Source of the DNA: a virus
Direction: 5' to 3' (one strand)
IMG/VR virus record: IMGVR_UViG_3300022187_000210
Coordinates: 1 to 25,629 of that record
Length of the DNA: 25,629 nt
Shown in pieces: positions 1,306 to 24,447 of this stretch. Position 1 is the first letter of the stretch. Each line of letters opens with the position of its first letter. A program made the translations under genes and the position numbers. The notes under the pieces were generated by a model that did not search any database, was not told where the DNA came from, and saw only the letters and a program-made list of their open reading frames with translations.

Positions 1306-2364
1306 CTACGCAGCGTTGTATACTGCAGACACAAGAGCTTCTGGGCGAAGAATCTTGCGACCATACAAATGCATACCACGAACGATGTCTGCGAATGAAT
1401 CAGGGTCACGGTAGTTCTCAACTTTGTTGATTTGCTCCGCTGAAGCTACTGCTTCTTCCTGACCTGCAACGATAACACCGTAGTTAGTTGACTGTGCAGA
1501 TGTACCTGAAGTACCTGCGCCTGTACCTGCTGCTGGTAGGTTGTTTGAAACGTAAACACGGAAGCCGTGTAGGTTGTTCAATACCAAACCGTTTTGCAAG
1601 CCTGAGCCACCGAAATCTGCGTTCAATAGACGTGAATCTTCGTCTTTTAGCATTTCGATAAATACAGGATCACATACCATCCAACGCCCACGTGAGTCAA
1701 CGTTTGCTGTATCCATCTGACGAGCCATACGAGCTACGACTGACAAAGGTGATACAGTTGTTGCTGACAACGCAGTTGCGCCTGGTAGACGTGGTGCTAG
1801 TGGGATAGAATCCCCTGCTGTAGCTGAACTTGAAATAGTCAAGCTAGAGAAGTCTGTAGCATCCAAGTGGTTAGCTGTTAGCCATTCACCTGTTAGGTTA
1901 CCTGGTGTGTCGTGCTGTGCATCACCTGATGTAGTTGTGATTGCAACACCTGCAGTTGTGTAACCTGATAGGTAAGACAATACGTCTGCGTCCATCGCGT
2001 CAGCCATTTTATATGCTGCACGATCAGCAGCTAGGCTAACGTAATCAACGTTTGCGAACTGATCTTCGATGTCATCCATTTTGAATGCGAAGTAGTTAGC
2101 TTTGTCGATTGTCAATGAGAAGTCTTCGTTTGCAAGCTTCTCTACAGAAATACCTGTGTGACGCTCTAGTGCGTTAACAGTTACGTCTGGTTCTTTCTGA
2201 ATGCGAACCACATCACCTTGGTTGGCGATCTCACCGAAGTAAGAGTTGTTTGTGATTGCGTTTGTGACAGCAGATTTACGTAGAGCAATCTGTGCCTGTT
2301 TGGAGTAGATAATTGGGGACCAGTTGGTACCTGTAAATCCACCCGATGCGGATGTAATAGCCAT
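1306..2364 (-). CDS. Major capsid protein (HK97-fold type)
   Basis: 352 residues, beginning MAITSASGGFTGTNWSPIIYSKQAQ. Support comes from position (directly after the scaffold gene), length, and capsid-like sequence features. These are an N-terminal segment of assembly type (QIALRKSAVTNAITNN), VVRIQKEPDVTVNALERH, a helix-rich spine region (YVSLAADRAAYKMADAMDADVL), RGRWMVCDPVFIEML and a C-terminal GMHLYGRKILRPEAL strand. The start has a strong ribosome site (AAGGAG, spacing 8-9). The gene has its own long leader of about 195 nt with a promoter-like element (2559-2590) and a hairpin, and is followed by a hairpin terminator. This arrangement suits high, independent expression. The exact capsid subfamily cannot be fixed by eye. 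Confidence 0.88.
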   Translation of the reverse strand: MAITSASGGFTGTNWSPIIYSKQAQIALRKSAVTNAITNNSYFGEIANQGDVVRIQKEPDVTVNALERHTGISVEKLANEDFSLTIDKANYFAFKMDDIEDQFANVDYVSLAADRAAYKMADAMDADVLSYLSGYTTAGVAITTTSGDAQHDTPGNLTGEWLTANHLDATDFSSLTISSSATAGDSIPLAPRLPGATALSATTVSPLSVVARMARQMDTANVDSRGRWMVCDPVFIEMLKDEDSRLLNADFGGSGLQNGLVLNNLHGFRVYVSNNLPAAGTGAGTSGTSAQSTNYGVIVAGQEEAVASAEQINKVENYRDPDSFADIVRGMHLYGRKILRPEALVSAVYNAA

Positions 2365-2593: not shown

Positions 2594-3550
2594 TTACTTT
2601 GTCATATCATAAATAAATTTACCTGAGCGTTGGGCATTAAGTATTTCTTCCTGCCGCTTCTCATACTCTTTGATGGACATCTTAGCTACCTGAGATTCAC
2701 TTAGATAGTTAGATGCATCGTCTTCTTGAATTTGTGTACTACGTTTAGTTCGTACAGATGATGCTGCATTTTTGTCACTAGAGGCTGCACGAGTTGCTTT
2801 GATACCGTTGTCAGCCTTGTATAGATCAATGACACGACTTACAGCTTTAGCGTCTTCTGAGTTCTCGTATAGCGCATCTTGTACCCACTTAGGTTGTTCT
2901 TCTGCCCAGTTGTGGAACGCATCGTCTTGACGTAACTGCTCAAAGTCAGGGTGCATCTGTAGTAGTTCAGCTTCTGCACGTTGACGCTTAGCATCTACAC
3001 GTAGCTCTTCGATCTCTTTCAAACGCTTATCAATGTCAGATGCACGTTCTTCAGCTTTACGATCTGCAATAGCTTCTACGATACCAGCTACATCAGGGTA
3101 CTTCTTAGCCCAAGCTTCAATCTCTTTCTCTGTCTTAGGTAGTACAAGCTCATTCTTTGTAGCCTTATCCAGCTGAGACTGTAGTTGCTCAAACTTTACT
3201 TTCCACTCTTGTTCTTTCTCTTGAACGTGGCGGCGTAGATCACCGTAGCGCTTCTTGAAGTTCTTCTCTTCAGCGTTTAACTCTGAGTCATCCTCTTCTT
3301 GTGCTTCGGCTTTAGCTGGCTCTTTCGCTTCTTGTTTGCGTACACCCTCATCCTGAACTGAGGTGTTCTCAACTCTTTGGCTATCGGGTTCACTATCGGA
3401 GGCTTCTTCCTGCGTTTCATTGTCTTGCTGTGAGGCTATCCCAGCCTGCTCCATTAGTTCCTTGAGTTCTTGCTCGTCACGCTGGATACGTGCTGCATTT
3501 CGTGAGTGTGCAGGTGAGTCCACCTTAATTTGCTGTTCTACTTCAGGCAT
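2594..3550 (-). CDS. Capsid scaffolding protein
   Basis: 318 residues, extremely charged and helical. The N-terminal half is Glu/Gln/Ser-rich and disordered-looking (QEEASDSEPDSQ, KEPAKAEAQEEDD). A long coiled-coil region follows, about residues 90-200 (FKKRYGDLRRHVQEKEQEW, ASDIDKRLKEIEELRVDAKRQ), then a basic C-terminal part ending in YEKRQEEILNAQRSGKFIYDMTK. Composition, length and position directly before the major capsid gene are those of an internal scaffold that guides procapsid assembly and then leaves. Translation starts after a clear AAGGAG site. The MHPDFEQLRQDDAFHNWAEEQP block resembles the linker seen in scaffolds of marine podoviruses and relatives (from memory). Confidence 0.85.
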   Translation of the reverse strand: MPEVEQQIKVDSPAHSRNAARIQRDEQELKELMEQAGIASQQDNETQEEASDSEPDSQRVENTSVQDEGVRKQEAKEPAKAEAQEEDDSELNAEEKNFKKRYGDLRRHVQEKEQEWKVKFEQLQSQLDKATKNELVLPKTEKEIEAWAKKYPDVAGIVEAIADRKAEERASDIDKRLKEIEELRVDAKRQRAEAELLQMHPDFEQLRQDDAFHNWAEEQPKWVQDALYENSEDAKAVSRVIDLYKADNGIKATRAASSDKNAASSVRTKRSTQIQEDDASNYLSESQVAKMSIKEYEKRQEEILNAQRSGKFIYDMTK

Positions 3551-3623: not shown

Positions 3624-5075
3624 CTATTTCTTCTTTTTCTTATTTGGACGTTTGACAATACCACCTTGGTTAAGCCCTGTAATTCCGTATTTTTCATCTA
3701 AAGCTGCCCCGCCTGTCATACCTGATGACTCCGCTACTCCTGCGGCAGAAGAGGTGTCAGTTATCGTAGTGTCAACTTCTGGTTCAGTTTCTGGTTCTGC
3801 TGAAGGTGTCACAGCTGGGCTACCGCCATCGTCATCATCATCACCGCCTGTACGACGAGAGCCACCGAATGAATCTCTTAGGTTATCACCTTGTACGCCA
3901 GCCTCTCCGTCGAAGCCCAATAAGTCACCTAACCAAGTATCACCGAAGTTAACATTGCCGTCACCACTTGTGTCAGCTAAGTTCTCATATAAGCTAGATT
4001 CACCACCGAAAATAGAGCCTTTCTTCTTCAGCCCTTCTTCGTTAATTCCAAGATCATCCATACGATCAACGATGTCGTTATATTGAGCTACTGCTGCTGT
4101 ATTGATAAACGCCGCTACTGGTAGTCCTGCACTAGAAGCTATAGCTGTAGCAATGTTAGTCATTACGCCTAGACCTTTAGCTGTTTTAGATAGGTCTTCT
4201 GGCTTAATACTATCTACATCAATAGGCTCTGGTCTTACTTGTGTTTTAGTAGGTTCACCCTCATCTTGCTGCCCTACTGTAGTCTCTGTAGTAGTTTGTA
4301 TTTGTGTCTCAGAGTAACCTAGCTCTAGTAGTTCTTCATATCGTGCTTGCTGTGCAGGAAGTGTAAGTGTTTCTACTTCTCCATTAGGGCCATACATAAT
4401 AACAGTATGTACTGGGGTAGCAGTAGTACCTAAAGTCTGATCAATTAAGTAACCAGGAGAGAACATAGAAGCTTGCTGTGTTCCGAATTGTGGTTGATAC
4501 GGATCAATGTCTGACTCTTGATTTGTGACAGGGTTTGTTATACCTGTACCTGTGCTAACATCTGTACCAGGAGCAGCGTAAAGTACCTGACCCCCTTTGT
4601 TATACTGACCAGTATTACCCATAGCTACAGGAGCAGGCTGTTGATACATCTGCTGTTGTTGCAGATAAGGGTTAGTACTTTGTGTAGGTTGAGGGACCAT
4701 ACCACCTACAGCCATACCTGTGATCTGCTCTAATGCAGCTAGTTCTTCAGGAGTCAGATCGCCACTAGCTTGATTATCCATAGTCATAGCTACAGGCTCA
4801 CCACCAATGCGTCCGTTAGCTTCCATATCCATCAAGCCACGCTTGGCTTCAGTACGTAGGTCTTCAAAGAACTTTACACCGTAGAAGCGTACAACGTCAG
4901 CAGGTACAACATATTCACCTTCACTTAGTTGCGCTGGGACATCATCACGTACTTCTTCAGCCATAGAACCAGGAGGCACTTCGTTACCGCTTACAGGGTC
5001 CATAGTAGTCCCATCATCAGTAAGACCACCTTCCTCCATCATAAAGGCCATCTGCATTTGCTTAGCTGTGTCCAT
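3624..5075 (-). CDS. Large acidic virion-associated protein of unknown function
   Basis: 483 residues. The N-terminal 90 residues contain a block I recognise from many marine phages: MDPVSGNEVPPGS, then AQLSEGEYVVPADVVRFYG and KFFEDLR. A Gln/Pro-rich section follows (YLQQQQMYQQPAP), with VGGMVPQP and YNKGGQV. Later come a calcium-loop-like DTSGDGNVNFGD, an Asp run (GGDDDDDGG), and a C-terminus NQGGIVKRPNKKKKK. Its place between the polyvalent-like protein and the scaffold suggests a virion or internal head component, but no enzymatic domain is visible. The start is the first ATG and overlaps the preceding 67-residue gene by 14 nt. Function is unknown. Confidence 0.75.
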   Translation of the reverse strand: MDTAKQMQMAFMMEEGGLTDDGTTMDPVSGNEVPPGSMAEEVRDDVPAQLSEGEYVVPADVVRFYGVKFFEDLRTEAKRGLMDMEANGRIGGEPVAMTMDNQASGDLTPEELAALEQITGMAVGGMVPQPTQSTNPYLQQQQMYQQPAPVAMGNTGQYNKGGQVLYAAPGTDVSTGTGITNPVTNQESDIDPYQPQFGTQQASMFSPGYLIDQTLGTTATPVHTVIMYGPNGEVETLTLPAQQARYEELLELGYSETQIQTTTETTVGQQDEGEPTKTQVRPEPIDVDSIKPEDLSKTAKGLGVMTNIATAIASSAGLPVAAFINTAAVAQYNDIVDRMDDLGINEEGLKKKGSIFGGESSLYENLADTSGDGNVNFGDTWLGDLLGFDGEAGVQGDNLRDSFGGSRRTGGDDDDDGGSPAVTPSAEPETEPEVDTTITDTSSAAGVAESSGMTGGAALDEKYGITGLNQGGIVKRPNKKKKK

Positions 5076-5265
5076 TAACTTCTTCCCTCATAAGTTTTAA
5101 TCTACGTAGTGCAGCTATCTCGCCTTGTATGCGATACATTGCCTCTGCGTCATTACTTTGCTCTATACGGACGTGCGCTGCGCTGATCTTACTATCTAGG
5201 TATTCTACGTAAGCATCCCATAGAGGCTTGTCATTTGTGATCTTCTTTAGTGCGCCTAAATTCAT
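5062..5265 (-). CDS. Small helical protein of the capsid operon
   Basis: 67 residues, predicted all-helical (WDAYVEYLDSKISAAHVRIEQ, then AMYRIQGEIAALRRLKLMREE). It sits between the polyvalent-like and large acidic genes with overlapping ends: its start overlaps the upstream stop (ATGA type) and its stop overlaps the next start by 14 nt. It is therefore translated with its neighbours and is probably structural or an assembly factor. I do not recognise a named family. A short helical protein at this place between portal and scaffold is common in related phages. Confidence 0.7.
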   Translation of the reverse strand: MNLGALKKITNDKPLWDAYVEYLDSKISAAHVRIEQSNDAEAMYRIQGEIAALRRLKLMREEVNGHS

Positions 5266-6656
5266 TTAGTTGGTCTCTCTACTAATCCACCTTTGTTGAA
5301 GCGTAGTTTAATATTTGTTGGATCAATAGTCAAGTTAGAAATGTCTAGAAGTGTACCTTGTACTGTTTCGACAGACTGTTTATAACTCTTATCGTCATAT
5401 ACATAATAGTTAAGCGGTTTCTTACCTACCTTAACCTGATTACCTAATTCGTTCTTTAGCTGCTTGAGAACCTTTTGATATGCTGCTACATAGGTGTTAT
5501 AGAAAGCAGAACCCTTGGCAATCTTGGAAGCTAGCTCATCTTTGTCAAAACGCTGCTCTGCTAGTTTTTCTACAGGAGGTAAGACAATCTCATCTACACC
5601 TTTTCCTTTAGCGTCTGCTATAATAGCCTGTAGGGACATACGAATTGAGTCAGTGATACGCTGAACAGGTAAGTCTTTTTTAGTAGTAACTGTTTCCATT
5701 TTACCTAGTCCAGTTTCTACCGCCTCAAATAACATATCTGACAGATCAGGTAAGTACATATGTCCTTCAAATTCAAACTCGCGTCCTACAATTTCACTTG
5801 CTACGTGAGATAAGCTACCTTGAGGTGTAAGGATATTAGGTTTTACTCCAATATCATCTAAAGCTTCTTTAAATATGTCCTTTTTCTGCTTATCAGAAAG
5901 CGTCTTATTTTTACGTGTAGGTATTACCGTGTCATAGATGTATGACTTTAAGTCTTTTATAGCCTTATCAGGATATCCACTACCTTCAGACTCTATCATA
6001 AATTCAAGCTGCTCTAAGATTTCAGATACTTCTTCATCCATCTCTTCAGTAGTTTTCTTTGTATATGCAGCTACATCATCTACTACATTCTGTAAGGCGT
6101 CAGACTGTAGCTCTTCAATAAGTATGTAATTACCTTCATCGCCACCACGCAAGCTATAACGTGTATGAGCTAGGTTAGAAGGGCCGTAGTGAGTAAAATA
6201 CTCAAGATCATCAGATGCATCTAAGCCCAACTCAGTGTAGTCCAACTCTTTATCCTGTAAAGAGCTTTGACGTTGCATATTACGATAACGAAAACCCTTT
6301 TTAACAGCCTTAACATCTAATCCCTTAAGTCCTTCTTTAGCTGTCTCAGCTGTGTATAACTCACCAGGCTCTAGTCCTAACCCACGATACTCCATCTCAG
6401 CTTGTGTGACTTTAGGCGCACGTTTACGTACAAACGCTTCGATGTTCTCACCACGTGTACCCTCTTTACCGATAGGCGCTTCGTCAATAGCACTCTCTAG
6501 TGGGCTATAGAATCGTGCAACGGTAGGGTCACTAGGGTCAGCCACATCCGTCAGTACCTCTTCTGTTTGTTTAAACATAGGGTTGTACTTGGGGTTGTCA
6601 GTGATGCCAAGCGATGCGCTTAGCTGCTTAGCTATCATACGAGAGATACCTGACAT
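5262..6656 (-). CDS. Polyvalent-protein-like virion protein (LPD-type domain)
   Basis: 464 residues directly after the portal. Residues 49-57 read FYSPLESAI, followed at 63-92 by KEGTRGENIEAFVRK and then EMEYRGL. Residues 157-186 contain YG, HTRYSLRGGDEGNYILIEELQSD. These pieces match, in order, the pattern of phage polyvalent-protein domains: FYSxxxxA, KGTxxQ, EExxWxGL and the core FIEExQSD. Such proteins are packaged and injected in other phages, where they are often part of much larger polypeptides, so here the domain stands alone. The later segment IVLPPVEKLAEQRF fits the same domain's end. The C-terminus FNKGGLVERPTK resembles the neighbour's NQGGIVKRP tail. Assignment is by recalled motif; activity is unknown. 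Confidence 0.6.
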   Translation of the reverse strand: MSGISRMIAKQLSASLGITDNPKYNPMFKQTEEVLTDVADPSDPTVARFYSPLESAIDEAPIGKEGTRGENIEAFVRKRAPKVTQAEMEYRGLGLEPGELYTAETAKEGLKGLDVKAVKKGFRYRNMQRQSSLQDKELDYTELGLDASDDLEYFTHYGPSNLAHTRYSLRGGDEGNYILIEELQSDALQNVVDDVAAYTKKTTEEMDEEVSEILEQLEFMIESEGSGYPDKAIKDLKSYIYDTVIPTRKNKTLSDKQKKDIFKEALDDIGVKPNILTPQGSLSHVASEIVGREFEFEGHMYLPDLSDMLFEAVETGLGKMETVTTKKDLPVQRITDSIRMSLQAIIADAKGKGVDEIVLPPVEKLAEQRFDKDELASKIAKGSAFYNTYVAAYQKVLKQLKNELGNQVKVGKKPLNYYVYDDKSYKQSVETVQGTLLDISNLTIDPTNIKLRFNKGGLVERPTK

Positions 6657-8773
6657 TAGCCTACGTTCCCACTAAATCCTTGTTCGCCTGGTTGTGGTGC
6701 TGTACCTGTACCCATCTGTGCTCCACCTGAGCCAGTTGTGTCTTGTACGTTAGCACCTGCTGGAGTTTGACCTTCTGGGCCTGGGGCTGGTCCTGGCTGC
6801 GCTGGGGGTTGCTGTGGTGCGAACTTCTTAAACAGTTCAGCTTGGATAGCTGCGTCTTGCATAGAGTTAGTAACCTTGTCTGGGTCTAAGTCCATACTCT
6901 TAGCGATCTCACGAATGATGTAATCCATCTTAGCGAAAGGCGCAAGCATTGGGTTAGACGCTACCTGTAGGAACTGCATTAGGCGCTGGGAGCGTACTTC
7001 GTTAGACATCAAGCTCTCTGTACCTGATGCTTTAACTTCTAAGTCACCCTTGATTGACTCATCAAAGTCAAACTGCATATTGAAGCTAAAGAATGCTTTA
7101 CCTAGAGGACCAAGCAAGTAGTCGTCTACGTTCTTAACTACTGAACGGATAGAGCCGTTGGCAGCAGACATAAGCATAGAAATACCAGAGGCAGTCCGAC
7201 CAACGCCGCTGACTCCAGTTTGTCCGTGAGCGAACGAAGGAAAGCCAGTACTTTCATCAGCTAAGACCCTAGCTTTGTCAAAGAGTTGCATATTCTCTTG
7301 AGCAACGTTGGGGAACTTGGTGCCGAAGATGGCCTGTCCAGGTGCACCACCTTGTCGCCTAAACACCTTCCCTGGGTACACTGACATATCTTGTCCTGGC
7401 ACCAGGTTGGTTTCGTCAAGCTCAATAATGAGGTTTCCAGATAAAGCAGCATTGTCGATTGCCATCCTCATAAAGCCATTCATTAGGGTCTGGGTATCGT
7501 CCATATTCTCAGCGATACCTACACCAAAGAATGAGTAAGGGTTATGTTCGTAAGGTGTTGCGTAGTAAGGGATACGTGCTGGTTTGAATGGGTTTAGTAC
7601 CATACGTAGTACTTCACCGTTACAAATCCAGATGTTGCAGCTGATCTCAACTAAGTCTTTAAACTCACGTGGAATCTTTACGCCATTCTCTTCTAGGATG
7701 TCTGTATCTACGAAACCCCAGAACTCTAACACTTCCCAGCGCTCTGACTCAGACAGGGTGTCGTCGTCTTCCATCTTCATTTCCCAGTGTTTACGTACAT
7801 AGTCTGGGCTTTGAGCAATAGCTGTTTCGATAGCTTCGTCACGGAAGTAAGGACGACCTTTTAAGCTACGTAGTTGGTTACGTGACATCTTGTGACGTTC
7901 AACTACATACTCTGCATCGTCCATAGATGTAGCTTCTGGGTCAGGGTAGAAGTTCCAAACTGAGACATTGTTACACTCAGGTACAGTCTTGATCAGTGGG
8001 TCATACTCACCGTTCTCATTCCAGTTAGGGTACTCTTTGTCTACAGCGAATGGGCCTTTCATTACGCCCGTACCAAGTAGTGCCATCTCGAAAGCCATAG
8101 AGCGTAGATGCTTAGATGCACCACTCTCTTGTAGCTGATCGTGAATCTTCTTTTCCATCTTCTTAGCTGCAACAAGCGCTGGGTGGAAAGACACTGTAGT
8201 AGGAGTAGTACCGTCACCTTCAATGACTTTATCAGCTACTGGAGCTAGCTTGTTACGCATTCCAGCTAGACGTTCCTGCAAATCAATGATAGTCTCACCT
8301 GGGCGTAGCTTGCCGTCATCACCTAGGAGAGGTGTAACTGCTGCGGGTTGCTCAGTGACAGCTTTACCTTCTTCTCCTGCTTGCTCCGCATTAGGATCGA
8401 CATTGATGTGTACAGCCTCTGCAACGCCATCAGGAAGCACGGTAGGGTCTACCGAGAGGGGGAACTTGTTATTACCAAACAACACGTCTACAATCTGCCC
8501 ATACGCAGCGAGAGTCTTTGTTTTGGTGACCTTAACAAACACACGAGACTTTTCTGTGTCAGTGAACTGTACGTCAGGACCATACAAGCCACGATAGTTA
8601 CGATACGCTCGTAGCCAACGCTCTTCGTCTACTTGTCGTGCATCCTCTGCACGTTTATAACGCTCGTTAACATACGTTACTACGCTACTGACAGACTCGA
8701 AGAGCTTATCACTGCCGTCTTCTGCAGCAACTACTTCGTCTGTGTCAAAGTTTAGATCATCAATGTCTGCCAT
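6656..8773 (-). CDS. Portal protein
   Basis: 705 residues. It lies directly after the large terminase gene and before the capsid cluster. The N-terminus has the portal-like ERYKRAEDARQVDEERWLRAYRNYRGLYG, followed by KVTKTKTLAAYGQIVDVLFG. The middle has KHWEMKMEDDD, YATPYEHNPYSFFGVGIAENMDDTQ and LMNGFMRMAIDNAALSGN, a segment typical of the stem/clip part in podovirus-like portals (SFFGxGxxENM, QxxxN). The last 50 residues are Pro/Gly/Gln-rich and probably disordered. The long size fits portals that carry a C-terminal barrel or extension. It forms the dodecameric DNA entry ring at the capsid vertex. Its last base is shared with the start of the next gene. Confidence 0.87.
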   Translation of the reverse strand: MADIDDLNFDTDEVVAAEDGSDKLFESVSSVVTYVNERYKRAEDARQVDEERWLRAYRNYRGLYGPDVQFTDTEKSRVFVKVTKTKTLAAYGQIVDVLFGNNKFPLSVDPTVLPDGVAEAVHINVDPNAEQAGEEGKAVTEQPAAVTPLLGDDGKLRPGETIIDLQERLAGMRNKLAPVADKVIEGDGTTPTTVSFHPALVAAKKMEKKIHDQLQESGASKHLRSMAFEMALLGTGVMKGPFAVDKEYPNWNENGEYDPLIKTVPECNNVSVWNFYPDPEATSMDDAEYVVERHKMSRNQLRSLKGRPYFRDEAIETAIAQSPDYVRKHWEMKMEDDDTLSESERWEVLEFWGFVDTDILEENGVKIPREFKDLVEISCNIWICNGEVLRMVLNPFKPARIPYYATPYEHNPYSFFGVGIAENMDDTQTLMNGFMRMAIDNAALSGNLIIELDETNLVPGQDMSVYPGKVFRRQGGAPGQAIFGTKFPNVAQENMQLFDKARVLADESTGFPSFAHGQTGVSGVGRTASGISMLMSAANGSIRSVVKNVDDYLLGPLGKAFFSFNMQFDFDESIKGDLEVKASGTESLMSNEVRSQRLMQFLQVASNPMLAPFAKMDYIIREIAKSMDLDPDKVTNSMQDAAIQAELFKKFAPQQPPAQPGPAPGPEGQTPAGANVQDTTGSGGAQMGTGTAPQPGEQGFSGNVG

Positions 8774-8776
8774 ATT

Positions 8777-10363
8777 TTAGTACCCGAATGTTGAGTCTGA
8801 AGCTTGAAAGCCTGTACGTTGGTTCTTAGCTGGATCGTAATCCCATATAGAACTACGTGGTCTTGTCATTATACCATACCTTAATGCGTCATACAAGTGG
8901 TCTTCTGCATTTGTATCTACATCTTCTGGATTTCTTTTGTCCAAAGGTATAGACGGTAGTTGCGATATAGTATTGGTACAGGAAGAAAAGAATACGAGCC
9001 TTGGCTTCTCAGTAAACTCATCTACCTGTAATCGGCGGTGTATCTCGTTCTTGCCTGAAACACGAGAGCCTTTTGAGCGATCAGAAGGTCTCCATCGGCA
9101 ACCTTTCATATTCATCTGCTCTGCCAAGGATGGGCCAGTATCACCTCGGTTGTGCCACAAAGAAGAGTCCAACACGCCGTATCTGATTGTACCGTCATTA
9201 GCTTCTGCTTCTAATATCATATCAGCTAGGTCTGATGCCGTGACTTTGGAACAGTATAGCTCTCTATATACAACCAGTTGTTCACTAGGGGTTACCGCTA
9301 ACCATACGACACCAGTAAAAGAACCATAACCGTAGTCACACGCTCTAAACTTAGTCCACGAATGTGGTATGTCGTAAGGTTCTACAACGTGTATAGCCCT
9401 GTTAAACTCAGGGAACGCTGCACCCTCGTTAATATCCCAGTTACCTTCAAGAAGTTGCTTCCTTTGGTGTTCAGGTAGTGAGAGAAGCATTGCTTCGTAG
9501 TCACCGCCTTCAGCTAGGTAAGGATTATCAAACAAGCTAGCTGGGATAAATCTGCGTTTAAATAGTGGCTCTCCTGCTCTGGTATGCCCAGGGGGAAAGG
9601 CTAGTGTTTCACCTGTCTCTATATTCGTAGCCCAGAACGGCTCATTGGGAGGCGATGGGTCTATGAACATCTTCTTAACCCAAGAGTGGCCTGGACCACC
9701 AGGGTTTGTCGTAGCTCTCATATACAAGCCTAACTCTTTAGAGCTAGTACGTAGACGTGACCTCATATAGTTCCAGCTATAGGGGCTGTTCCACTGAGTC
9801 AATTCGTCGAAAGCTACATAGTTAAACGCCTGTCCTTGGTAGCGCATAACGTCTGTGTCTTTGTCGAGGTAGGACATCCAGAGTCGTCCTCCTCTTGGTG
9901 TGGTCCACTGAGACTTACGCTCTGACCACTTAATCCCAGGAATCGCTTTAGGGTATAACTCTTGGCTTTTCTGTATGAGTTCCCTTAGTTCTTCCGTTGT
10001 GTGTCGAACAAGTAGACCACTAAAGTCTGGGTTGTTCATATCACGCAGAGGGTCTGCTAGAGTCGCATAGGACTTGCCACCGCCAGCTGCTCCACCATAT
10101 AGTACTTCACGTTCACTAGAAGCTAGATATTGTGTCTGTGGCCCTGGGTTAGGCTTAAAGACTACTTCACGTGCAGCTATCGGATCAAACTCAGCAGGCT
10201 TAACTTCAGCTGGTTTCAAGCTCTGCGTCTGAGTCTTCGTCGGCGTAGGTGTAGTAACCGAGTCTTTCTTTTTCGAGTATCTCGTACTGCTTGAGCGCTT
10301 TTTCGTACCTTTGGGTAAGCTTGCGTTTAATTGCAGCAAGTGATTTACGTTTTCTTTCGACAT
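8777..10363 (-). CDS. Terminase large subunit (packaging ATPase/nuclease)
   Basis: 528 residues from the ATG at 10363. Walker A is GGAAGGGKS (90-98), Walker B is NYVAFDE (181-187) and the coupling motif is ATTNPGGPGH (217-226). The RNase H-fold nuclease shows acidic residues in ACDYGYG (D343), GVLDSS (D399) and AEDHLYDALRY (D488). It cuts and pumps concatemeric DNA through the portal. The first 48 residues are Ser/Thr/Lys low complexity and lie in a 158-nt overlap with the preceding gene, where the other frame looks more protein-like. The true start may therefore be the TTG at 10219 or another non-ATG codon. Everything from about residue 64 on is certain. Confidence 0.95.
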   Translation of the reverse strand: MSKENVNHLLQLNASLPKGTKKRSSSTRYSKKKDSVTTPTPTKTQTQSLKPAEVKPAEFDPIAAREVVFKPNPGPQTQYLASSEREVLYGGAAGGGKSYATLADPLRDMNNPDFSGLLVRHTTEELRELIQKSQELYPKAIPGIKWSERKSQWTTPRGGRLWMSYLDKDTDVMRYQGQAFNYVAFDELTQWNSPYSWNYMRSRLRTSSKELGLYMRATTNPGGPGHSWVKKMFIDPSPPNEPFWATNIETGETLAFPPGHTRAGEPLFKRRFIPASLFDNPYLAEGGDYEAMLLSLPEHQRKQLLEGNWDINEGAAFPEFNRAIHVVEPYDIPHSWTKFRACDYGYGSFTGVVWLAVTPSEQLVVYRELYCSKVTASDLADMILEAEANDGTIRYGVLDSSLWHNRGDTGPSLAEQMNMKGCRWRPSDRSKGSRVSGKNEIHRRLQVDEFTEKPRLVFFSSCTNTISQLPSIPLDKRNPEDVDTNAEDHLYDALRYGIMTRPRSSIWDYDPAKNQRTGFQASDSTFGY

Positions 10364-11595: not shown

Positions 11596-11808
11596 TCATT
11601 CTTTACCTTCTCTTACGATACGCTTGATGTCACCACGTCCGATACCTAAATCGTTTAGCTCACGGTCTGACATACGCCATAGGTGCATCTCTGCGATACG
11701 TGCATTAGCTTGACGTTGACGTGCTTCAATCATTGCGTTAAACACTCTGACCAGCCAAGCTTTAAAATTAGTGGCCCACTTTGATGATTCAGAAATTACT
11801 AGTTCCAT
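11596..11808 (-). CDS. DUF1127 (YjiS-like) protein
   Basis: 70 residues. The C-terminal half (RIAEMHLWRMSDRELNDLGIGRGDIKRIVREG) is a clear DUF1127 signature: L-x-x-M-S-D-R-E-L-x-D-L-G-I-x-R-x-x-I. The N-terminal half is an amphipathic basic helix (FKAWLVRVFNAMIEARQRQANARI). In alphaproteobacteria, DUF1127 proteins are abundant small RNA- or metabolism-linked regulators. A phage copy suggests capture from, and interference with, such a host system. It has its own good ribosome site (AAGGAG, 9-10 nt spacing) and a TATAACTATA motif about 32 nt upstream, so it may be expressed separately from the rest of the block. Confidence 0.88.
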   Translation of the reverse strand: MELVISESSKWATNFKAWLVRVFNAMIEARQRQANARIAEMHLWRMSDRELNDLGIGRGDIKRIVREGKE

Positions 11809-12267: not shown

Positions 12268-12636
12268 TTACTTCTTCTTCTTACTTTTAACTACGTAAGC
12301 TTCATTCACATCAGGTGTAGAGGGATCATCAGCGATGAAATGTCCATTCTCATCACGTGCACGTACAATCTCAAGATCATCTGACTTCACTGCCTTTGCT
12401 TTAGGTGTTACTTTCTTAACTACCTTCTTAACTGCAGCTTTAGCTTTAGTAGATAAACTCATCTCAGCTTCTTGACAGATAGCATTTACATTAGGGTCTT
12501 TACTTTGTACGTTACCGTAGTTGTCTTCACCTGCAGACTGATTACCCATAGAGTCCCACACGTAGCCGTGCTCGTCTACACGATAACCTTTAGCTTCTAG
12601 TGCGTCTTTATATTTATGGTAATACTTCTGTGCCAT
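12268..12636 (-). CDS. Lys-rich protein of unknown function
   Basis: 122 residues. The N-terminal part, KYKDALEAKGYRVDEHGYVWDSMGNQSAGEDNYGNV, looks folded. The middle is a basic, Ala/Lys/Val-repetitive stretch (KAKAAVKKVVKKVTPKAKAVK), reminiscent of histone-H1-like tails. A short acidic section follows (DENGHFIADDPSTPDVNEAYVV) and it ends KSKKKK. The start overlaps the previous stop (TAATG). The basic tract suggests nucleic-acid contact, perhaps with packaged DNA, but this is inference and I recognise no named family. Confidence 0.65.
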   Translation of the reverse strand: MAQKYYHKYKDALEAKGYRVDEHGYVWDSMGNQSAGEDNYGNVQSKDPNVNAICQEAEMSLSTKAKAAVKKVVKKVTPKAKAVKSDDLEIVRARDENGHFIADDPSTPDVNEAYVVKSKKKK

Positions 12637-12866
12637 TATGAACTCGTGTTGATTGGGCGCTCAGCTGGATTAGATGCACCACAGTAGCCACCTTTATTGT
12701 AGCCCTTCTTAGCAGTCATACCGCCTTTGGACATACCCATAGCCATATAGTCTTTCTTCTTTTTAGAAGCCATACCACCATAAGCCATACCTGTCTTTTC
12801 TTTCTGACAGCCTTCTTTGGCACACTTAGCTGGGGTTTTACACCCTGGACAAGGTTTAAATTTCAT
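12636..12866 (-). CDS. Small Cys/Gly/Lys-rich protein with KGG repeats
   Basis: 76 residues from the ATG at 12866. Upstream in-frame codons are ignored because the conserved-looking sequence begins MKFKPCPGCKTPAKCAKEGC. Four cysteines in a C-x2-C-x5-C-x4-C array could bind a metal. The rest is low complexity: YGGM, KKKK, SKGGM, YNKGG. The CKTPAKC block is one I associate with small proteins of marine phages. No enzymatic function is visible. The KGG motifs recur in two larger virion proteins of this window (3624-5075 and 5262-6656). Confidence 0.65.
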   Translation of the reverse strand: MKFKPCPGCKTPAKCAKEGCQKEKTGMAYGGMASKKKKDYMAMGMSKGGMTAKKGYNKGGYCGASNPAERPINTSS

Positions 12867-12868
12867 AA

Positions 12869-13153
12869 TTATGCTCTCTTTCTTCCTGATGCTGTTGTTG
12901 ACCAATTAACTTTAGATGGTCCTGTCTTTTTCTGTGCCTCTTTTTTGGATATTTTTGAGGCAACTTTCTTCGGCCTACACGCTGGGTACGGTCTACTTGA
13001 GTCACTGGCTGAACTACGCCCACATTCTTTACCTGTCTTAACGTCTGTCCATTCTTCACCAAACCACTTACCTAAGCCTCCTTGAGAAAAACTCCTACGC
13101 TGACTTTGTAATACGTGTTGGCTATTACGTGACCTTGTTCTTGGTTGTGCCAC
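12869..13153 (-). CDS. Small basic protein, GLGKWF...YPACRP family
   Basis: 94 residues if started at the GTG at 13153, which has an ideal ribosome site (GGAGG, 8 nt spacing). The GTG at 13168 has none. The core is GLGKWFGEEWTDVKTGKECGR followed by PYPACRPKK and a Lys/Ser-rich tail. This core (LxxWFxExWVDVKTGxPCGR...YPxCRP) is a small conserved unit I remember from marine phages and from giant DNA viruses. Two Cys residues are invariant in that recalled pattern and present here. It overlaps the upstream DUF5872-like gene by 29 nt. The role is unknown and probably virion-associated. Confidence 0.65.
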   Translation of the reverse strand: MAQPRTRSRNSQHVLQSQRRSFSQGGLGKWFGEEWTDVKTGKECGRSSASDSSRPYPACRPKKVASKISKKEAQKKTGPSKVNWSTTASGRKRA

Positions 13154-16899: not shown

Positions 16900-17145
16900 T
16901 ATAAGAGTTTAAACTTCCATAGATTGCTTAGGGAATGTTAGGTTAGTTAAACATTATGTAGAGTTTAACTATTGAGTGAGGAGGAGACTAAGAGGGAGTT
17001 TAACTCTACCCTAGTTTAACTAACCTTAAGTATAACTATATCATAGTTTAATATTAGTGTCAAGCTATTTCTTTAGTTAAACTACAGTAGTTATACTATA
17101 TATTAGTTTAAACTCTTCCTATGTCCAAACTTTATAGTTTAACTA
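16900..17145. repeat. Cluster of AGTTTAAC / GTTAAACT repeats
   Basis: Nine copies or near copies of AGTTTAA(A/C), in both orientations, lie within about 240 bp (near 16906, 16938, 16962, 16995, 17012, 17043, 17072, 17104 and 17132). Two carry a full GTTTAAAC palindrome and form a long-range inverted pair (AAGAGTTTAAACT against AGTTTAAACTCTT). TATAACTATA is interspersed. Such AT-rich iteration suits an unwinding element or cooperative operator cluster. Confidence 0.6.
17035..17063 (-). promoter_or_regulatory. Sigma70-like promoter reading into the late block
   Basis: The minus strand has TTGACA (17063-17058), a 17-nt spacer, then TATAGT (17040-17035): perfect -35, five of six at -10, ideal spacing. 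It is preceded by GC as in the other TTGACA elements here. The nearest leftward gene starts at 16845. Confidence 0.6.
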
Positions 17146-17163
17146 AGCCCCCTTACCCCCGTA

Positions 17164-17192
17164 GTTATGCATAAAATGTAGGTACTTGTCAA
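17164..17192 (-). promoter_or_regulatory. Second sigma70-like promoter reading leftward
   Basis: TTGACA (17192-17187), a 17-nt spacer and CATAAC (17169-17164), which matches four of six at -10. Tandem with the promoter at 17035-17063, it would also feed the late block. Confidence 0.4.
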
Positions 17193-17540
17193 GTGATTCT
17201 TTGTAGCTGTAGCATAAAAGTGATAATTACGTAGCGTCACTGTAATAGATTGAAACATTCTGTGATATACTTACTAGAAATACAAGGGAATGTGTGGAAT
17301 TATATAGGAAAACAAGGGAATAGTGTAACTGTTATAATGTAACACCCTTTTGAAAAACCACTTCTGTTGCAGAGTACATATATACGTAACGGTATAGGGG
17401 GGTGTGGCCCCTGCCCGCCCGTGTTTAACGTGTGTGTTGCGCGTCCGAGGCGCGAGATGGGGTGCTAAGTTGTTGAAAATAAAGGGTTTTTATAGTGATA
17501 TGACTTCACAGATTCGCTAAAATAGGCTGATTCACGGGCG

Positions 17541-17715
17541 CTCACGCATCACGCGCACAGCTCAGCGTTTTATGCACATAACACCCCTATCCCCCCGAAC
17601 GCATTGCACACAGCACACCCCCCAGCGTTTGCGCATCATACGCATCACGCTCTCGCATCACATCACGTCAGGCGCATCAGGCAGGCACATCACGTTGCGC
17701 TATCCGCATCACGCG
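17541..17715. repeat. CATCACG iteron cluster
   Basis: Six GCATCA and two ACATCACG units (near 17546, 17634, 17641, 17654, 17660, 17673, 17687, 17705), several flanked by CGC or TACG. The spacing is irregular (about 7-15 nt) except for an outlier at 17546. The repeats are on one strand and short, as in replication-initiator iterons. They make spurious His-rich reading frames. Confidence 0.55.
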
Positions 17716-17718
17716 AGG

Positions 17719-17770
17719 CAATGTTGCTGATTCGTTCCACCCTGCCGATGTCCAATGTTGCTGATTCGTT
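17719..17770. repeat. 18-bp direct repeats CAATGTTGCTGATTCGTT
   Basis: Perfect copies at 17719-17736 and 17753-17770 (34-bp period). The inner part, GCTGATTCGTT, occurs inverted at 17844-17854, next to a TTGACA (17835-17840), and partly at 17526-17533. They flank the first member of the palindrome family and lie in front of the first early gene. They are probable binding sites for a regulator or initiator. Confidence 0.6.
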
Positions 17771-17784
17771 CTCATCAAAAAAAG

Positions 17785-17809
17785 CTATTTTCGGACCGTC
17801 CGAAGATAG
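17785..17809. promoter_or_regulatory. Palindrome family, copy 1
   Basis: A 25-bp palindrome centred on C17797: arms CTATTTTCGGAC and GTCCGAAGATAG, one mismatch. It is the most symmetrical copy and lies about 105 nt before the first early gene. A TACCCT-AA-AGGGTA hairpin followed by AAAAAAA comes directly after it. Confidence 0.8.
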
Positions 17810-17914
17810 ATACCCTAAAGGGTAAAAAAAGTGTTTGACATAAAACGAATCAGCTGCCAAGTTAAATGCATCGAAACGGCGACAATCGCCCAACAGCAAA
17901 AAAGGATTTTCGAT

Positions 17915-18451
17915 ATGACAAACGCAGTAGCAAAAACACACATCGACGCAAAAGTAACATACAAAGGCACATCATATACATTCACAGAGGCTTGTGATCA
18001 CGTTTCACACCTATTTGATCAGCGTGATGACACCGCAGAATTGGTGCTCTTTCAGACCCGTGATATTGGCCTATGGTTGCTACAGCTTCGCTCAGTCTAC
18101 AAGTCGAACAAGCAATTTGGTGCAGCTATCGCCGCCACACCCCTAAGCAAGCGCTCAGCACAAGACCGCAACGATGCAATGTTCGTCGCTGAGAACTGGG
18201 ACAAAGTAGCGAAGCTAAACAAAAAAGGTGAACTCAATTCACTTGGTGCCTCAGCGGTCCGTAAGCGGGTCAAAAAAGCGCAGACTGCAGGTAACACATC
18301 CAAGGGCAAGCAAGCGGCTAAACCCACAGCGGAAGCGGATGCACCTATCACAGCGGACAGCCTTGCCAAGGCCACAATGAAATTGTTGAACGACAACGGC
18401 ATCACACTTGCAGACTTCCGCAAGGCATTGACCAAGGCAAGCAAGGCATAA
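17915..18451 (+). CDS. First early protein, probable DNA-binding regulator
   Basis: 178 residues from the ATG at 17915. Upstream in-frame ATGs are rejected because AAGGA lies 8 nt before this one, exactly as in the gene at 18836. The protein has a helical N-terminal half (ACDHVSHLFDQRDDTAELVLF, IGLWLLQLRSVYKSNKQFG), then RSAQDRNDAMFVAENWDKVAKLNKKGE and SLGASAVRKRVKKAQ, an HTH-like run. An Ala/Lys linker and a C-terminal helix (ITADSLAKATMKLLNDNGITLADFRKALTKA) follow. It resembles loosely the layout of DUF3102-type plasmid/phage regulators, but that match is weak. It follows palindrome copy 1 and ends in a terminator. Codons are richer in G+C than in later genes. Confidence 0.75.
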   Translation: MTNAVAKTHIDAKVTYKGTSYTFTEACDHVSHLFDQRDDTAELVLFQTRDIGLWLLQLRSVYKSNKQFGAAIAATPLSKRSAQDRNDAMFVAENWDKVAKLNKKGELNSLGASAVRKRVKKAQTAGNTSKGKQAAKPTAEADAPITADSLAKATMKLLNDNGITLADFRKALTKASKA

Positions 18452-18459
18452 TGAACACG

Positions 18460-18482
18460 GCCCCGCTTAGCGGCGGGGCTTC
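18460..18482 (+). terminator. GC-rich hairpin after the first early gene
   Basis: GCCCCGC (18460-18466), a six-base loop, then GCGGGGC (18473-18479) and TTCCCT. The stem is strong but the U-tract short. It ends only 4 nt before palindrome copy 2. Confidence 0.65.
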
Positions 18483-18483
18483 C

Positions 18484-18504
18484 CTATCTTCGGATCGTCC
18501 GAAA
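18484..18504. promoter_or_regulatory. Palindrome family, copy 2
   Basis: CTATCTTCGGATCGTCCGAA followed by AATA. One base of the arm differs (T for C at 18495). It lies between the terminator at 18460 and the gene at 18536. Confidence 0.8.
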
Positions 18505-18535
18505 ATAAAACTTTAATCCTGAAAGGATCAGTAAA

Positions 18536-18754
18536 ATGAAAGTAGTTTATGTTATTCACGGCTCAGACAATGACGGCACACTAGGCGCATTCAATCGCAA
18601 GAGTGATGCACTCGATAACGCAATCGCATATGTAGGTGATAACGCCGTCATAGACGGGGACGATAGCTGTTGGCATTTCAATATTTATGGTGATCGCCGC
18701 AATGCATCCATCCAATTGGTCCCGCTCGACGTTGAACTTACAGTTCCTGCATAA
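18536..18754 (+). CDS. Small early protein, unknown function
   Basis: 72 residues with a good ribosome site (GAAAGGA). The sequence begins MKVVYVIHGSDNDGTLGAF, with YVGDNAVIDGDDSCWHFNIYGD in the middle: a compact alpha/beta pattern with many Asp residues. It is an isolated unit, with palindrome copy 2 upstream and a classical terminator directly downstream. A small acidic inhibitor of a host function is a possible role. I recognise no family. Confidence 0.7.
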   Translation: MKVVYVIHGSDNDGTLGAFNRKSDALDNAIAYVGDNAVIDGDDSCWHFNIYGDRRNASIQLVPLDVELTVPA

Positions 18755-18758
18755 ACAC

Positions 18759-18785
18759 AGCCGCCCTTCGGGGCGGTTTTCTTTT
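18759..18785 (+). terminator. Intrinsic terminator with TTCG tetraloop
   Basis: CCGCCC (18761-18766), TTCG, GGGCGG (18771-18776), then TTTTCTTTT. A near-ideal rho-independent terminator. Confidence 0.9.
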
Positions 18786-18791
18786 GTCCCC

Positions 18792-18811
18792 CTATCTTCG
18801 GACCGTCCGAA
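18792..18811. promoter_or_regulatory. Palindrome family, copy 3
   Basis: CTATCTTCGGACCGTCCGAA, the consensus form, 7 nt after the terminator T-run and about 25 nt before the 40-residue membrane protein gene. Confidence 0.85.
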
Positions 18812-18835
18812 AATACAACACAAGGATTTTTTGAT

Positions 18836-18958
18836 ATGACTAGCAAACAACGCAAAGCGAAACAACGCACTCACACCTTTATGCTCCTGCTCAATATGCT
18901 ATGCCTGTGCCTGTTCGGCTATGTGCTCGGCTATGCTATGGGTGCGGGGCTGCTGTGA
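18836..18958 (+). CDS. 40-residue single-span membrane protein
   Basis: ATG at 18836, AAGGA 9 nt before, TGA at 18956. A basic N-terminus (MTSKQRKAKQRTHTF) is followed by a hydrophobic span rich in Leu/Cys/Gly (MLLLNMLCLCLFGYVLGYAM, ending GAGLL). It is probably an inner-membrane peptide with the basic end in the cytoplasm. It sits right behind palindrome copy 3, and its stop is one base before the next possible start (TGATATG). An early superinfection-exclusion or membrane-targeting role is possible but not shown. Confidence 0.7.
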   Translation: MTSKQRKAKQRTHTFMLLLNMLCLCLFGYVLGYAMGAGLL

Positions 18959-18959
18959 T

Positions 18960-19139
18960 ATGGGACGCAGAAAATACCCGCTACGCAAGCGTATACTGAT
19001 GCGACCTATGAAGTTCTGTTGGCCTCATTATGGTGGGGTTGACAAACATTTTATGGGGTGTCATTCTTATATACATACGAGATCGAAACCGCTATCTTCG
19101 GACCGTCCGATGACAGCACAACCCAGAAGGAGAAAATGA
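18960..19139 (+). CDS. Possible small basic protein containing a palindrome copy
   Basis: 59 residues, ATG at 18960 one base after the previous stop. It is strongly basic (MGRRKYPLRKRILMRPMKF) with Cys and His residues (CWPHYGG, GCHSYIH), and it ends RRRK. Palindrome copy 4 is read inside it as LSSDRP (residues 45-50). Its stop is one base before the next ATG. The open frame is convincing at the start; the last 15 residues may only be read-through of the element and the next ribosome site. No family recognised. Confidence 0.45.
   Translation: MGRRKYPLRKRILMRPMKFCWPHYGGVDKHFMGCHSYIHTRSKPLSSDRPMTAQPRRRK
19092..19110. promoter_or_regulatory. Palindrome family, copy 4
   Basis: CTATCTTCGGACCGTCCGA, about 30 nt before the 147-residue gene and inside the last codons of the possible 59-residue gene. 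Confidence 0.8.
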
Positions 19140-19140
19140 T

Positions 19141-19584
19141 ATGGGTGAATATGTAATCTTTGCAATCGACAACGATGATGACGTACACACTAACGCTAAG
19201 TTCCTACGCTACGTAGATGAGCGTGAGGTGATGGGTAAAACCAAAGGCAAGATGAAGCTATGCATCGGCTCATACAAGGGCAAGCTTGAACGCTCGTACA
19301 TAATGAGATGGGATGACTTTATGGAACACATCGCTGAGTCTGGCTATGTAGATAAGCAAGAGTCTATCCTGATACTGCGTGATGGGTACTACGGCAAGGT
19401 GTACGCCACGCTCAAGTTCAACAATGAGGCAGGGCAGTTCCCTAATGTAGGGTATGATGACTTGTTCTTGGGTGAGTTCAAATCCATCCCTGCAAGTGAG
19501 GCACAGTATGAGGAGGCGTGGACATACCGCCCAGACCTTGACACATACTATGTATGCGAGGAGATCACGGAGGAGGTGGCTTAG
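19141..19584 (+). CDS. Early protein, unknown function
   Basis: 147 residues with a strong AAGGAG site. It begins MGEYVIFAIDNDDDVHTNAKF, with KLCIGSYKGKLERSYIMRWDDF, then SILILRDGYYGKVYATLKF, and an acidic C-terminus (YYVCEEITEEVA). The mix of short strands and acidic patches suggests a small globular protein. There is palindrome copy 4 in front and copy 5 behind, so it is a separate unit in the early array. No family recognised. Confidence 0.75.
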   Translation: MGEYVIFAIDNDDDVHTNAKFLRYVDEREVMGKTKGKMKLCIGSYKGKLERSYIMRWDDFMEHIAESGYVDKQESILILRDGYYGKVYATLKFNNEAGQFPNVGYDDLFLGEFKSIPASEAQYEEAWTYRPDLDTYYVCEEITEEVA

Positions 19585-19591
19585 GCCATCT

Positions 19592-19610
19592 CTTTCTTCG
19601 GACCGTCCGT
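19592..19610. promoter_or_regulatory. Palindrome family, copy 5
   Basis: CTTTCTTCGGACCGTCCGT, 8 nt after the 147-residue gene stop and 20 nt before the 53-residue HTH gene. It has two differences from consensus, both at the outer ends. Confidence 0.75.
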
Positions 19611-19629
19611 AAATAGAGGAGTTGACAAT

Positions 19630-19791
19630 ATGGACAAGATTAAATTACAAGGTGGCTTCCACTGGAGCGACGAAGAGATTTTGTATTTCTTTGATACGCA
19701 TTGGGGTGTCACAGTAGAGAAACTGAGTGCGATGTGTGGACGTTCAGTGCCATACGTCAAGCAGCTATTATTAGAGGAGCAATACCAATGA
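19630..19791 (+). CDS. Small HTH (Myb/GcrA-like) protein
   Basis: 53 residues, ATG at 19630, AGAGGAG in front. The sequence HWSDEEILYFFDTHWGVTVE, then KLSAMCGRSVPYVKQLLLEE has the pattern W-[ST]-x-E-E, a helix, then LSxxxGRSxxxVxxxL. This is a tri-helical HTH like Myb/SANT or GcrA N-terminal domains. It therefore probably binds DNA. It lies 20 nt behind palindrome copy 5, which makes it a candidate autoregulated binder of the palindromes (inference). Its stop overlaps the next ATG (ATGA). Confidence 0.65.
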   Translation: MDKIKLQGGFHWSDEEILYFFDTHWGVTVEKLSAMCGRSVPYVKQLLLEEQYQ

Positions 19792-20054
19792 AACGTCACG
19801 CTAAATCTGCATACACTATGCTCAAGAATATGGGTGTGCCTATGTACATTCACGAAGGTGAGAGCTATCACTTCCTGATCAGCGCAGAGGAGAACTACGA
19901 TACAGTATGGGCTGACTATTGGGCTATGTCTGATGGTTCCTATGGTGAGCTAGATGACTTCGGTGTAAACGAAAAGATTAACAAGGTGTTAGATCAGTAT
20001 GATCTATTCTGTGAATGGCAGAACCCTGGTGCGTTAGGAGTGTATGATGCGTAA
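19788..20054 (+). CDS. Early acidic protein, unknown function
   Basis: 88 residues from the ATG at 19788, which overlaps the previous stop and is preceded by GAGGAG. It begins MKRHAKSAYTMLKNMGVPMYIHEGESYHF, followed by the Trp/Tyr/Asp-rich ENYDTVWADYWAMSDGSYGELDDF and a last third KINKVLDQYDLFCEWQNPGALG. Upstream in-frame starts are rejected because they lie inside the HTH gene. Net acidic. No family recognised. It is part of a run of overlapping small genes to 20461. Confidence 0.7.
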   Translation: MKRHAKSAYTMLKNMGVPMYIHEGESYHFLISAEENYDTVWADYWAMSDGSYGELDDFGVNEKINKVLDQYDLFCEWQNPGALGVYDA

Positions 20055-20229
20055 GCAACCTATAACACTCGTAAATACTATTGATGGGGAAGTGTGGGAA
20101 GCCACACTGTTTGATATACTGCGTGAAATAAATGATGATCGTGGTGAGGAATGGGAACCCTACGATGAAACCGATTGGCTAGAAGGACTGTTGAACTTTA
20201 CTACTTGGGAGATAAAGAAAGATGCGTAA
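20047..20229 (+). CDS. Early acidic protein, unknown function
   Basis: 60 residues if started at the ATG at 20047; the ATG at 20044 is only 3 nt from the GGAG, so 20047 fits better. The sequence is TLVNTIDGEVWEATLFDILRE, then NDDRGEEWEPYDETDWLEG and TTWEIKKDA. It is very acidic in the middle with four Trp residues. It overlaps both neighbours by 8 nt. Such small acidic early proteins are frequently inhibitors of host enzymes, but nothing specific is recognisable. Confidence 0.65.
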   Translation: MRKQPITLVNTIDGEVWEATLFDILREINDDRGEEWEPYDETDWLEGLLNFTTWEIKKDA

Positions 20230-20461
20230 GAGATACTATGTAAATGTGTATGAGTATAGCCGTGAGTACGGTGGCCCAGAAGAAGGCGGGTGGTACTACG
20301 ATGCAGGCTATAACGGTTATGTGTGGAACTCATACTTCGATGAGGACGCTGCACTCAATAGAGCAACTGAACTTAGGATGGGTATTGACAAACATCTGAA
20401 GGTCAGAGTAGAAGAGCATAGACCTAGGGATTGGCCTGAGGTTAGACCACATTACGAGTGA
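20222..20461 (+). CDS. Early Tyr/Gly-rich protein, unknown function
   Basis: 79 residues, ATG at 20222, overlapping the previous gene. The N-terminal half is strand-forming and Tyr-rich (YYVNVYEYSREYGGPEEGGWYY, then AGYNGYVWNSYFDED). The C-terminal half is a helix plus a basic end (AALNRATELRMGIDKHLKVRVEEHRPRDWP). It starts with the same ATGCGTAAG as the preceding gene, which could reflect duplication of a start region. No family recognised. Confidence 0.65.
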   Translation: MRKRYYVNVYEYSREYGGPEEGGWYYDAGYNGYVWNSYFDEDAALNRATELRMGIDKHLKVRVEEHRPRDWPEVRPHYE

Positions 20462-20472
20462 TGGAGAATGTA

Positions 20473-20619: not shown

Positions 20620-20643
20620 AACGATACGAGAGGAGACTTCACA

Positions 20644-23642: not shown

Positions 23643-23646
23643 ACTA

Positions 23647-23672: not shown

Positions 23673-23690
23673 ATACATAGGAGAACAACA

Positions 23691-24421: not shown

Positions 24422-24447
24422 TATGACAGAAGAGAGTGGAGAAGAGG

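Follow-up and report, generated by a model that had tools for sequence, protein, structure and literature searches.

The DNA examined here is a viral stretch of 25,629 nucleotides (the window). Its head operon carries a gene for a 464-residue protein, P0001, and the question is what a domain of the kind found in very large polyvalent phage proteins does there as a gene of its own. An earlier note on this DNA had described a 464-residue gene at 5262–6656 with four motifs in a set order. Reading-frame analysis found the plus strand packed with stops across this interval, and the translated minus-strand frame contained the motifs FYSPLESA (residues 49–56), KEGTRGENI (64–72), EMEYRGL (87–93) and YILIEELQSD (177–186) in that order. 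The description was borne out by the open reading frame, the motif positions, and the hidden Markov model (HMM) searches and controls given below. Coordinates are collected in Table 1.

Table 1. Features of the P0001 locus, in window coordinates
Feature	Position	Strand	Basis or remark
P0001, 464-aa gene of the EELQSD domain	5262..6656	-	open reading frame and relatives
Constant N-terminal 20 codons of P0001 (MSGISRMIAKQLSASLGITD)	6597..6656	-	retained when the payload is exchanged or missing
P0001 residues 49-93, FYS...GT...EMEYRGL block	6378..6512	-	common to the EEIQSDWHQ family
P0001 residues 175-186, strand ending YILIEELQSD, predicted GNAT-like beta-4	6099..6134	-	model and profile alignment
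P0001 residues 195-322, variable helical insertion, predicted beta-4/alpha-3 interval	5691..6074	-	model
P0001 residues 334-438, predicted alpha-3/beta-5/alpha-4/beta-6/beta-7 of GNAT-like core	5343..5657	-	model
P0001 C-terminal tag LRFNKGGLVERPTK, residues 451-464	5265..5306	-	
Terminase large subunit	8777..10363	-	phrog_979
Portal	6656..8773	-	phrog_332/1216
67-aa gene	5062..5265	-	homologues come after portal in cultured HMO-2011-type phages
483-aa core protein (DPVSGNEVPPGS...)	3624..5075	-	fused payloads at front end in relatives
Scaffold-like protein	2594..3550	-	phrog_13678, a PHROG of unknown function
Major head protein	1306..2364	-	phrog_267

Gene order on the minus strand was terminase large subunit, portal, P0001, 67-aa gene, 483-aa core protein, scaffold-like protein, major head protein and tail protein. 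The portal stop codon TAA overlaps the P0001 ATG as TAATG (6654–6658), and the P0001 TGA overlaps the ATG of the 67-aa gene as ATGA (5262–5265). P0001 is a separate gene within the head operon, as the order portal, P0001, 67-aa gene confirms. The note had placed it between portal and scaffold; the portal gene does adjoin, but two genes (5062–5265 and 3624–5075) come before the scaffold-like gene at 2594–3550, which owes its name to its position ahead of the major head protein.

The window portal shared 80.9% identity with its counterpart in Roseobacter phage CRP-2 (705 aa compared) and 67.1% with that of HMO-2011, and on this basis the phage is assigned to the HMO-2011-type podoviruses; portal and gene order were common to the window, HMO-2011 and the roseophages. 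HMO-2011-type phages are a common ocean group. In the core protein (window 3624–5075) and its homologues, a DPVSGNEVPPGS...DDIPAQLSEGEYVVPADVVRFYG segment is conserved between variable front and rear parts, and the protein is possibly an internal or ejection protein of HMO-2011-type phages. Three other parts of the window may be recorded here. An 89-aa Lys/Gly-rich protein at 12636–12905 repeats a KGG motif (MSKGGMTAKKGYNKGGY), which the ends of P0001 and of the core protein also contain. The small protein at 11596–11808 is a candidate counterpart of CRP-603 gp69, which is annotated DUF1127 and lies two genes ahead of the terminase small subunit. Across 17000–25629, large open reading frames move to the plus strand, and the GC skew changes sign near 19 kb.

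Relatives of the P0001 domain were found in large phage proteins. A DNA pattern for the motif EEIQSDWHQ matched at least 120 viral stretches, of which the 80 listed were used. Many of the large proteins displayed the order FYS..GT..V.K.E....GL, LAH.R and EEIQSDWHQ, as in P0001. With Z=1000, P0001 matched an HMM of the EEIQSDWHQ domain, made from 38 sequences, at E=1.9e-4, and of 30 P0001-type proteins 14 matched it at E<0.01; none of 30 reversed or 300 shuffled control sequences did. Alignment of the two families with hhalign gave collinear blocks at residues 44–~90 (E about 1e-5) and 154–190 (E about 3e-8); a third block, at about 339–373, was weak (E 0.009 vs 0.09 for the reversed control). 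Three of the EEIQSDWHQ giants were checked and carried, respectively, GGDEF, LPD22, and LPD38 plus RadC, all of which are polyvalent-protein domains in the account of Iyer et al. 2017 (PMC5512222). At E<=0.001, a Foldseek search of predicted viral proteins (BFVD) returned 15 matches, of which two bore the name 'Large polyvalent protein associated domain-containing protein'. The homology to polyvalent-type proteins that the note had proposed is supported by these results, and P0001 has a domain in common with recognised polyvalent proteins. Its position between the portal and major head genes is likewise near late virion genes, where phage polyvalent genes have been placed (PMC5512222, section 32). 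Polyvalent proteins combine at least two different domains; P0001 comprises one predicted domain and its end tags.

The note had also treated the stand-alone form as special, and this did not hold. EEIQSDWHQ open frames ranged from 349 to 3429 aa, and 48 of the 80 listed (from at least 120) were shorter than 1000 aa, some of them shortened by contig ends. Solo LPDs beside phage structural genes had already been noted (Iyer et al. 2017, PMC5512222, section 29).

Curated collections gave little. The profile match that the note had named as a check was obtained with our own profiles and, on the relatives, with phrog_7348, but not with Pfam or NCBIfam: neither has a model covering the EELQSD/EEIQSDWHQ domain in P0001, in 14 family members or in the EEIQSDWHQ domains. 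The EEIQSDWHQ relatives match only positions of about 1640–2070 among the 2564 of phrog_7348, so its endolysin label may mislead for this domain. LPD models in Pfam, which may not cover all 40 LPDs, gave no match to P0001 at E<=10, to the 14 family members at E<=1 or to five EEIQSDWHQ domains at E<=0.1. PADLOC and PHROGs yielded nothing usable for P0001 itself, tblastn of P0001 against 50,697 phage records gave no match, a profile search of genome contigs with the 30-member P0001-type alignment found no relative, and the best PDB sequence match of the 14 family members was only E 0.3 or worse. Titles and abstract openings retrieved on the EIQSD motif, on large polyvalent proteins, polyvalent acetyltransferases and ejected cargo, and on the virion proteins of HMO-2011-type and Puniceispirillum phages, with passages of PMC6918029 and PMC10386132, neither named the domain nor described HMO-2011-type virion proteomics.

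Some family members carried additional inserts. In L021 (6001–7881) and L070 (8001–9947), a GHDGRHRAWALKKIGV / GHEGRHRAMAINALGL domain, which by motif we take to be ParB-like, is inserted between two strands ahead of YILIEELQSD, giving two-domain variants. The L021 insert region produced one marginal tblastn match among the 50,697 phage records (Phage NCTB, E 1e-3). In L005, L015, L016 and L018, an insert of ~130 aa (IPVQRIEGYADPF...IDVDDVIAIGNPTEREV) follows the FYS block at gene residues ~98–230; that of L005 had no Pfam match.

Analysis of related loci showed that the gene occupies a fixed slot. A P0001-type gene was recognised by script in 55 of 56 loci, the one missed being a locus in which the search expression was unmatched; the 55 include near-duplicates. 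In 54 of these 55, a long open reading frame ends 3 bases ahead of the gene (L045 is cut there), and of 37 in which the core gene was visible, 36 had a core-protein front of only 19–25 residues before the DPVSGNEVPPGS core.

Fusion provides a second arrangement. Among 80 loci selected by the core protein, seven had a P0001-type domain fused ahead of the core (E 1e-13 to 1e-28), and other fronts ranged from 87 to 1643 residues. These included a Hydrolase_2 cell-wall hydrolase (CRP-2, L221, L252) and, above cut-off, LPD23 (L248, L272, L265) and a DUF6782 metallopeptidase (L259). A fused relative, L285, combined domains, with an NlpC/P60 or CHAP match below cut-off. The fused fronts finish with a linker, for example FNKGGAVM or FAEGGTV, resembling the C-terminal LRFNKGGLVERPTK of P0001. 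For 43 loci with the portal visible, a separate gene was accompanied by a short core front in 12 and by a long front in none; without a separate gene, the front was short in 14 and long in 17 (Fisher p 0.001, 43 of 80 loci, kinship ignored). The table omits eight loci that lacked the core motif, 11 whose 5′ end was open and 18 in which no portal was recognised, L283 being one of the last. Separate gene and fused front are not strictly alternatives, because L064 and L283, both outside the table, carry the two together.

The slot itself was found filled, re-filled and empty. When the constant N-terminus was used as query, 80 loci were found, and the gene was recognised in 78: 66 had E[EQ][ILM]QSD, four an unrelated payload of 327 aa, four a remnant of 34 codons, and four were cut ahead of the motif. 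The first ~20 residues were the same in all slot states. The unrelated payload was an identical protein in four contigs, including L296, and the remnant occurred in L326 and three more contigs; each represents one sequence type. Locus L299, in the EELQSD state (contig of L071, 649 aa), served for comparison. Nucleotide identity between L296 and L299 was 98.4% from the portal through the initial 20 codons and 95.6% downstream of the gene; for the portal, L299 and the empty L326 were 96.8% identical. The unrelated payload, 'EWTQVGFDPRRQGGFY...QIGPLVLA', is a domain that cultured CRP-207, and likewise ctYwJ313, carries joined to the core. A profile of it, built from five of seven sequences (two lacked the anchor motif), matched in one protein of 1706 residues (L130). 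This payload had been expected to be common in the EEIQSDWHQ giants, and the profile matched none of the EEIQSDWHQ proteins.

Exchange extends to the interior of EELQSD genes, between constant ends, as comparison of P0001 with L019 established at the level of sequence. Residues 1–40 were 100% and 436–464 were 93% identical, with changes at 5% and 0% of four-fold sites, respectively, while residues 196–325 were only 15% identical. For this interior exchange the backbone was 93–96% identical up to the break in L040, L045 and L038. Of 66 complete genes, 62 had the C-terminal GG tag; the four that did not were the empty ones. Taken together, the aligned loci demonstrate a slot, coupling to the neighbouring genes, cassette exchange, fusion, and absence in close relatives.

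The cultured relatives checked lack the domain at this place. At E<0.01, profile search found no EELQSD domain in the slot of any of 15 phage records, most of them isolates (11 roseophages, HMO-2011, HTVC115P, RHph_N3_19 and ctYwJ313). The gene had been presented in the note as a natural model for the function of the domain; because none of the 15 records has the domain in the slot, that use is limited. Comparison of filled, re-filled and empty slots is a better model than the stand-alone gene.

Because related phages keep, swap, fuse or lack the module, it has the look of cargo and not of a shell component. We consider it somewhat probable that P0001 serves an HMO-2011-type podovirus as an exchangeable cargo (effector) module, probably virion-borne and acting early in infection. 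Fusion to a protein that bears wall hydrolases in relatives speaks for delivery. It also bears on the possibility that P0001 is a late intracellular enzyme which is not packaged, for example a host-takeover or superinfection-exclusion factor. A virion role is suggested by the neighbourhood only, as this explanation would have it; yet relatives join this domain to the core protein at a place where others bear cell-wall hydrolases, as would be expected for virion-delivered domains, and we regard an unpackaged enzyme as unlikely. Less likely again is a morphogenetic or structural accessory of portal or head, such as an assembly chaperone or connector part. Such a role would suit a gene that sits between portal and capsid genes, is coupled to both neighbours and has strongly conserved ends. 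However, in close relatives its place is taken by a 34-codon remnant or by an unrelated domain, cultured HMO-2011-type phages are without the gene, and the middle is far more variable than expected of a structural partner. Absence and exchange of the gene therefore speak against a structural role.

The fold of the domain was predicted twice with AlphaFold2, from alignments with no sequence in common. Model 1, on the P0001 alignment (30 sequences), had pLDDT 81.3 and pTM 0.75; model 2, on the EEIQSDWHQ alignment (38 sequences), had pLDDT 84.6 and pTM 0.77. In both, a short FYS strand, helices, a strand and three long strands, the third ending in EELQSD or EEIQSD, preceded a helical insertion, which was followed by helix, strand, helix and two strands; the second half of model 2 contained further elements. 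Foldseek against the PDB gave no match at E<=0.001 for either model. The top 1000 Foldseek chains were re-aligned by VIA, and among the best 50 rows listed for each model, GNAT-fold proteins, as judged by title, made up 46 for model 1 and 36 for model 2. The best GNAT-type chain in both was the M. tuberculosis ICL2 C-terminal domain (model 1: Z 8.7, close to the tool's quoted background of 7–8, 3.7 Å, 141 residues; model 2: Z 10.8, 3.1 Å, 140 residues). Two bestrophin rows on the helical insertion outscored the GNATs in model 1 (Z 9.1 and 8.9). Rows of bestrophin type, DNA polymerase epsilon and EmrA aligned with the helical insertion only and were set aside (4/50 in model 1, 14/50 in model 2).

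The models predict a GNAT-like fold for the P0001 domain, with the invariant EELQSD at the end of the central strand. GNATs hold CoA between beta-4 and alpha-3. At this place, the usual CoA-pyrophosphate loop is predicted to be replaced by a long, fast-changing helical insertion, which is the most variable part of the P0001-type domain. The CoA-loop motif [QR]xxGx[GA] was missing near the EELQSD strand in 30 of 30 P0001-type members, so the domain is named GNAT-like and not filed as an acetyltransferase; the motif fell somewhere in range in 12 of 38 EEIQSDWHQ proteins, which may include chance matches. The ICL2 C-terminal domain was itself called GNAT-like by its authors, prompting their acetyl-CoA test (PMC6788997).

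Two nucleic-acid roles were weighed against the models. If P0001 were an Alba-like nucleic-acid-binding protein that coats or organises phage DNA, the top two Foldseek PDB rows of model 1 would be explained: these are small archaeal-type DNA-binding proteins (E 0.06 and 0.09; Foldseek probability 0.97 and 0.96), which we take to be of the Alba family, with RNase P Pop/Rpp proteins in several rows further down. In its C-terminal half, a GNAT resembles Alba-like proteins in the order of elements. Only about 110 columns were aligned, the rmsd of the top two rows was 6 Å or more, and the independent model 2 puts GNATs on top, so that this role appears very improbable. Modification of the phage's own DNA as anti-restriction, as by the GNAT-fold DNA modifier Mom of phage Mu, is equally hard to credit: Mom (8bv8) was one of the chains that aligned best (148 residues, Z 8.0) but level with many other GNATs, a late head-operon gene would act late, and a swap with an unrelated domain gives no hint of DNA modification.

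If P0001 is cargo, it would be made late, together with the portal, loaded into the head and ejected with the DNA into the bacterium. In the first minutes of infection it may there modify or bind a host target, with acyl-type transfer as a possible means. Its target would be set by the variable insertion, whose standing as the most variable part would agree with a changing target or with evasion of a host factor. A wider proposal, which we offer tentatively and would not yet expect to hold in full, is that the head operon of HMO-2011-type phages contains a dedicated cargo slot in which the constant N-terminal helix and the C-terminal 'NxGGLVxRxxK' tag form a loading address. Unrelated effectors (EELQSD GNAT-like, 'WTQVGFDP', fused cell-wall hydrolases) would be swapped in and delivered with the DNA, and EELQSD/EEIQSDWHQ would be a large uncatalogued GNAT-like effector family across phage polyvalent proteins.

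Polyvalent proteins often have thousands of residues and are hard to dissect, and here a widespread, Pfam-less domain sits alone. Since the slot is filled, re-filled and emptied on almost identical genomes, a clean comparison of the domain's role is possible. The predicted GNAT-like fold suggests an activity to test first. Should the ends prove to be a loading address, marine phages would possess a ready-made route by which unrelated proteins enter virions.

Phage polyvalent proteins are the nearest known system, with a homologous domain alongside LPD22, LPD38, RadC or GGDEF (Iyer et al. 2017, PMC5512222). They resemble P0001 also in placement among virion genes, and in relatives the slot is occupied by fused forms bearing endopeptidase-like and LPD23 domains; P0001 differs as a single domain in its own gene with no Pfam LPD match. 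GNAT acetyltransferases, of which the ICL2 C-terminal domain, NatD, AtaT and TacT2 were the nearest solved, share the predicted strand and helix order and gave the best structural alignments, the GNAT fold of P0001 being that of predicted models. Unlike them, P0001 lacks the [QR]xxGx[GA] loop and has a long helical insertion after beta-4 and an extra FYS block in front. Among polyvalent proteins, two RimI-like GNAT families are known, with solo versions beside late structural genes (PMC5512222, section 11). These resemble P0001 in its predicted fold and in placement, whereas neither P0001 nor the EEIQSDWHQ family had an Acetyltransf match by sequence (Pfam). T7 gp16 and the P22 ejection proteins are head proteins with an enzyme domain, for example a wall hydrolase, that is delivered at infection. 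The core protein differs from these in sitting between portal and scaffold and in having no match among solved chains (PDB sequence search, E<=0.1), and is like them in bearing a Hydrolase_2 domain in CRP-2.
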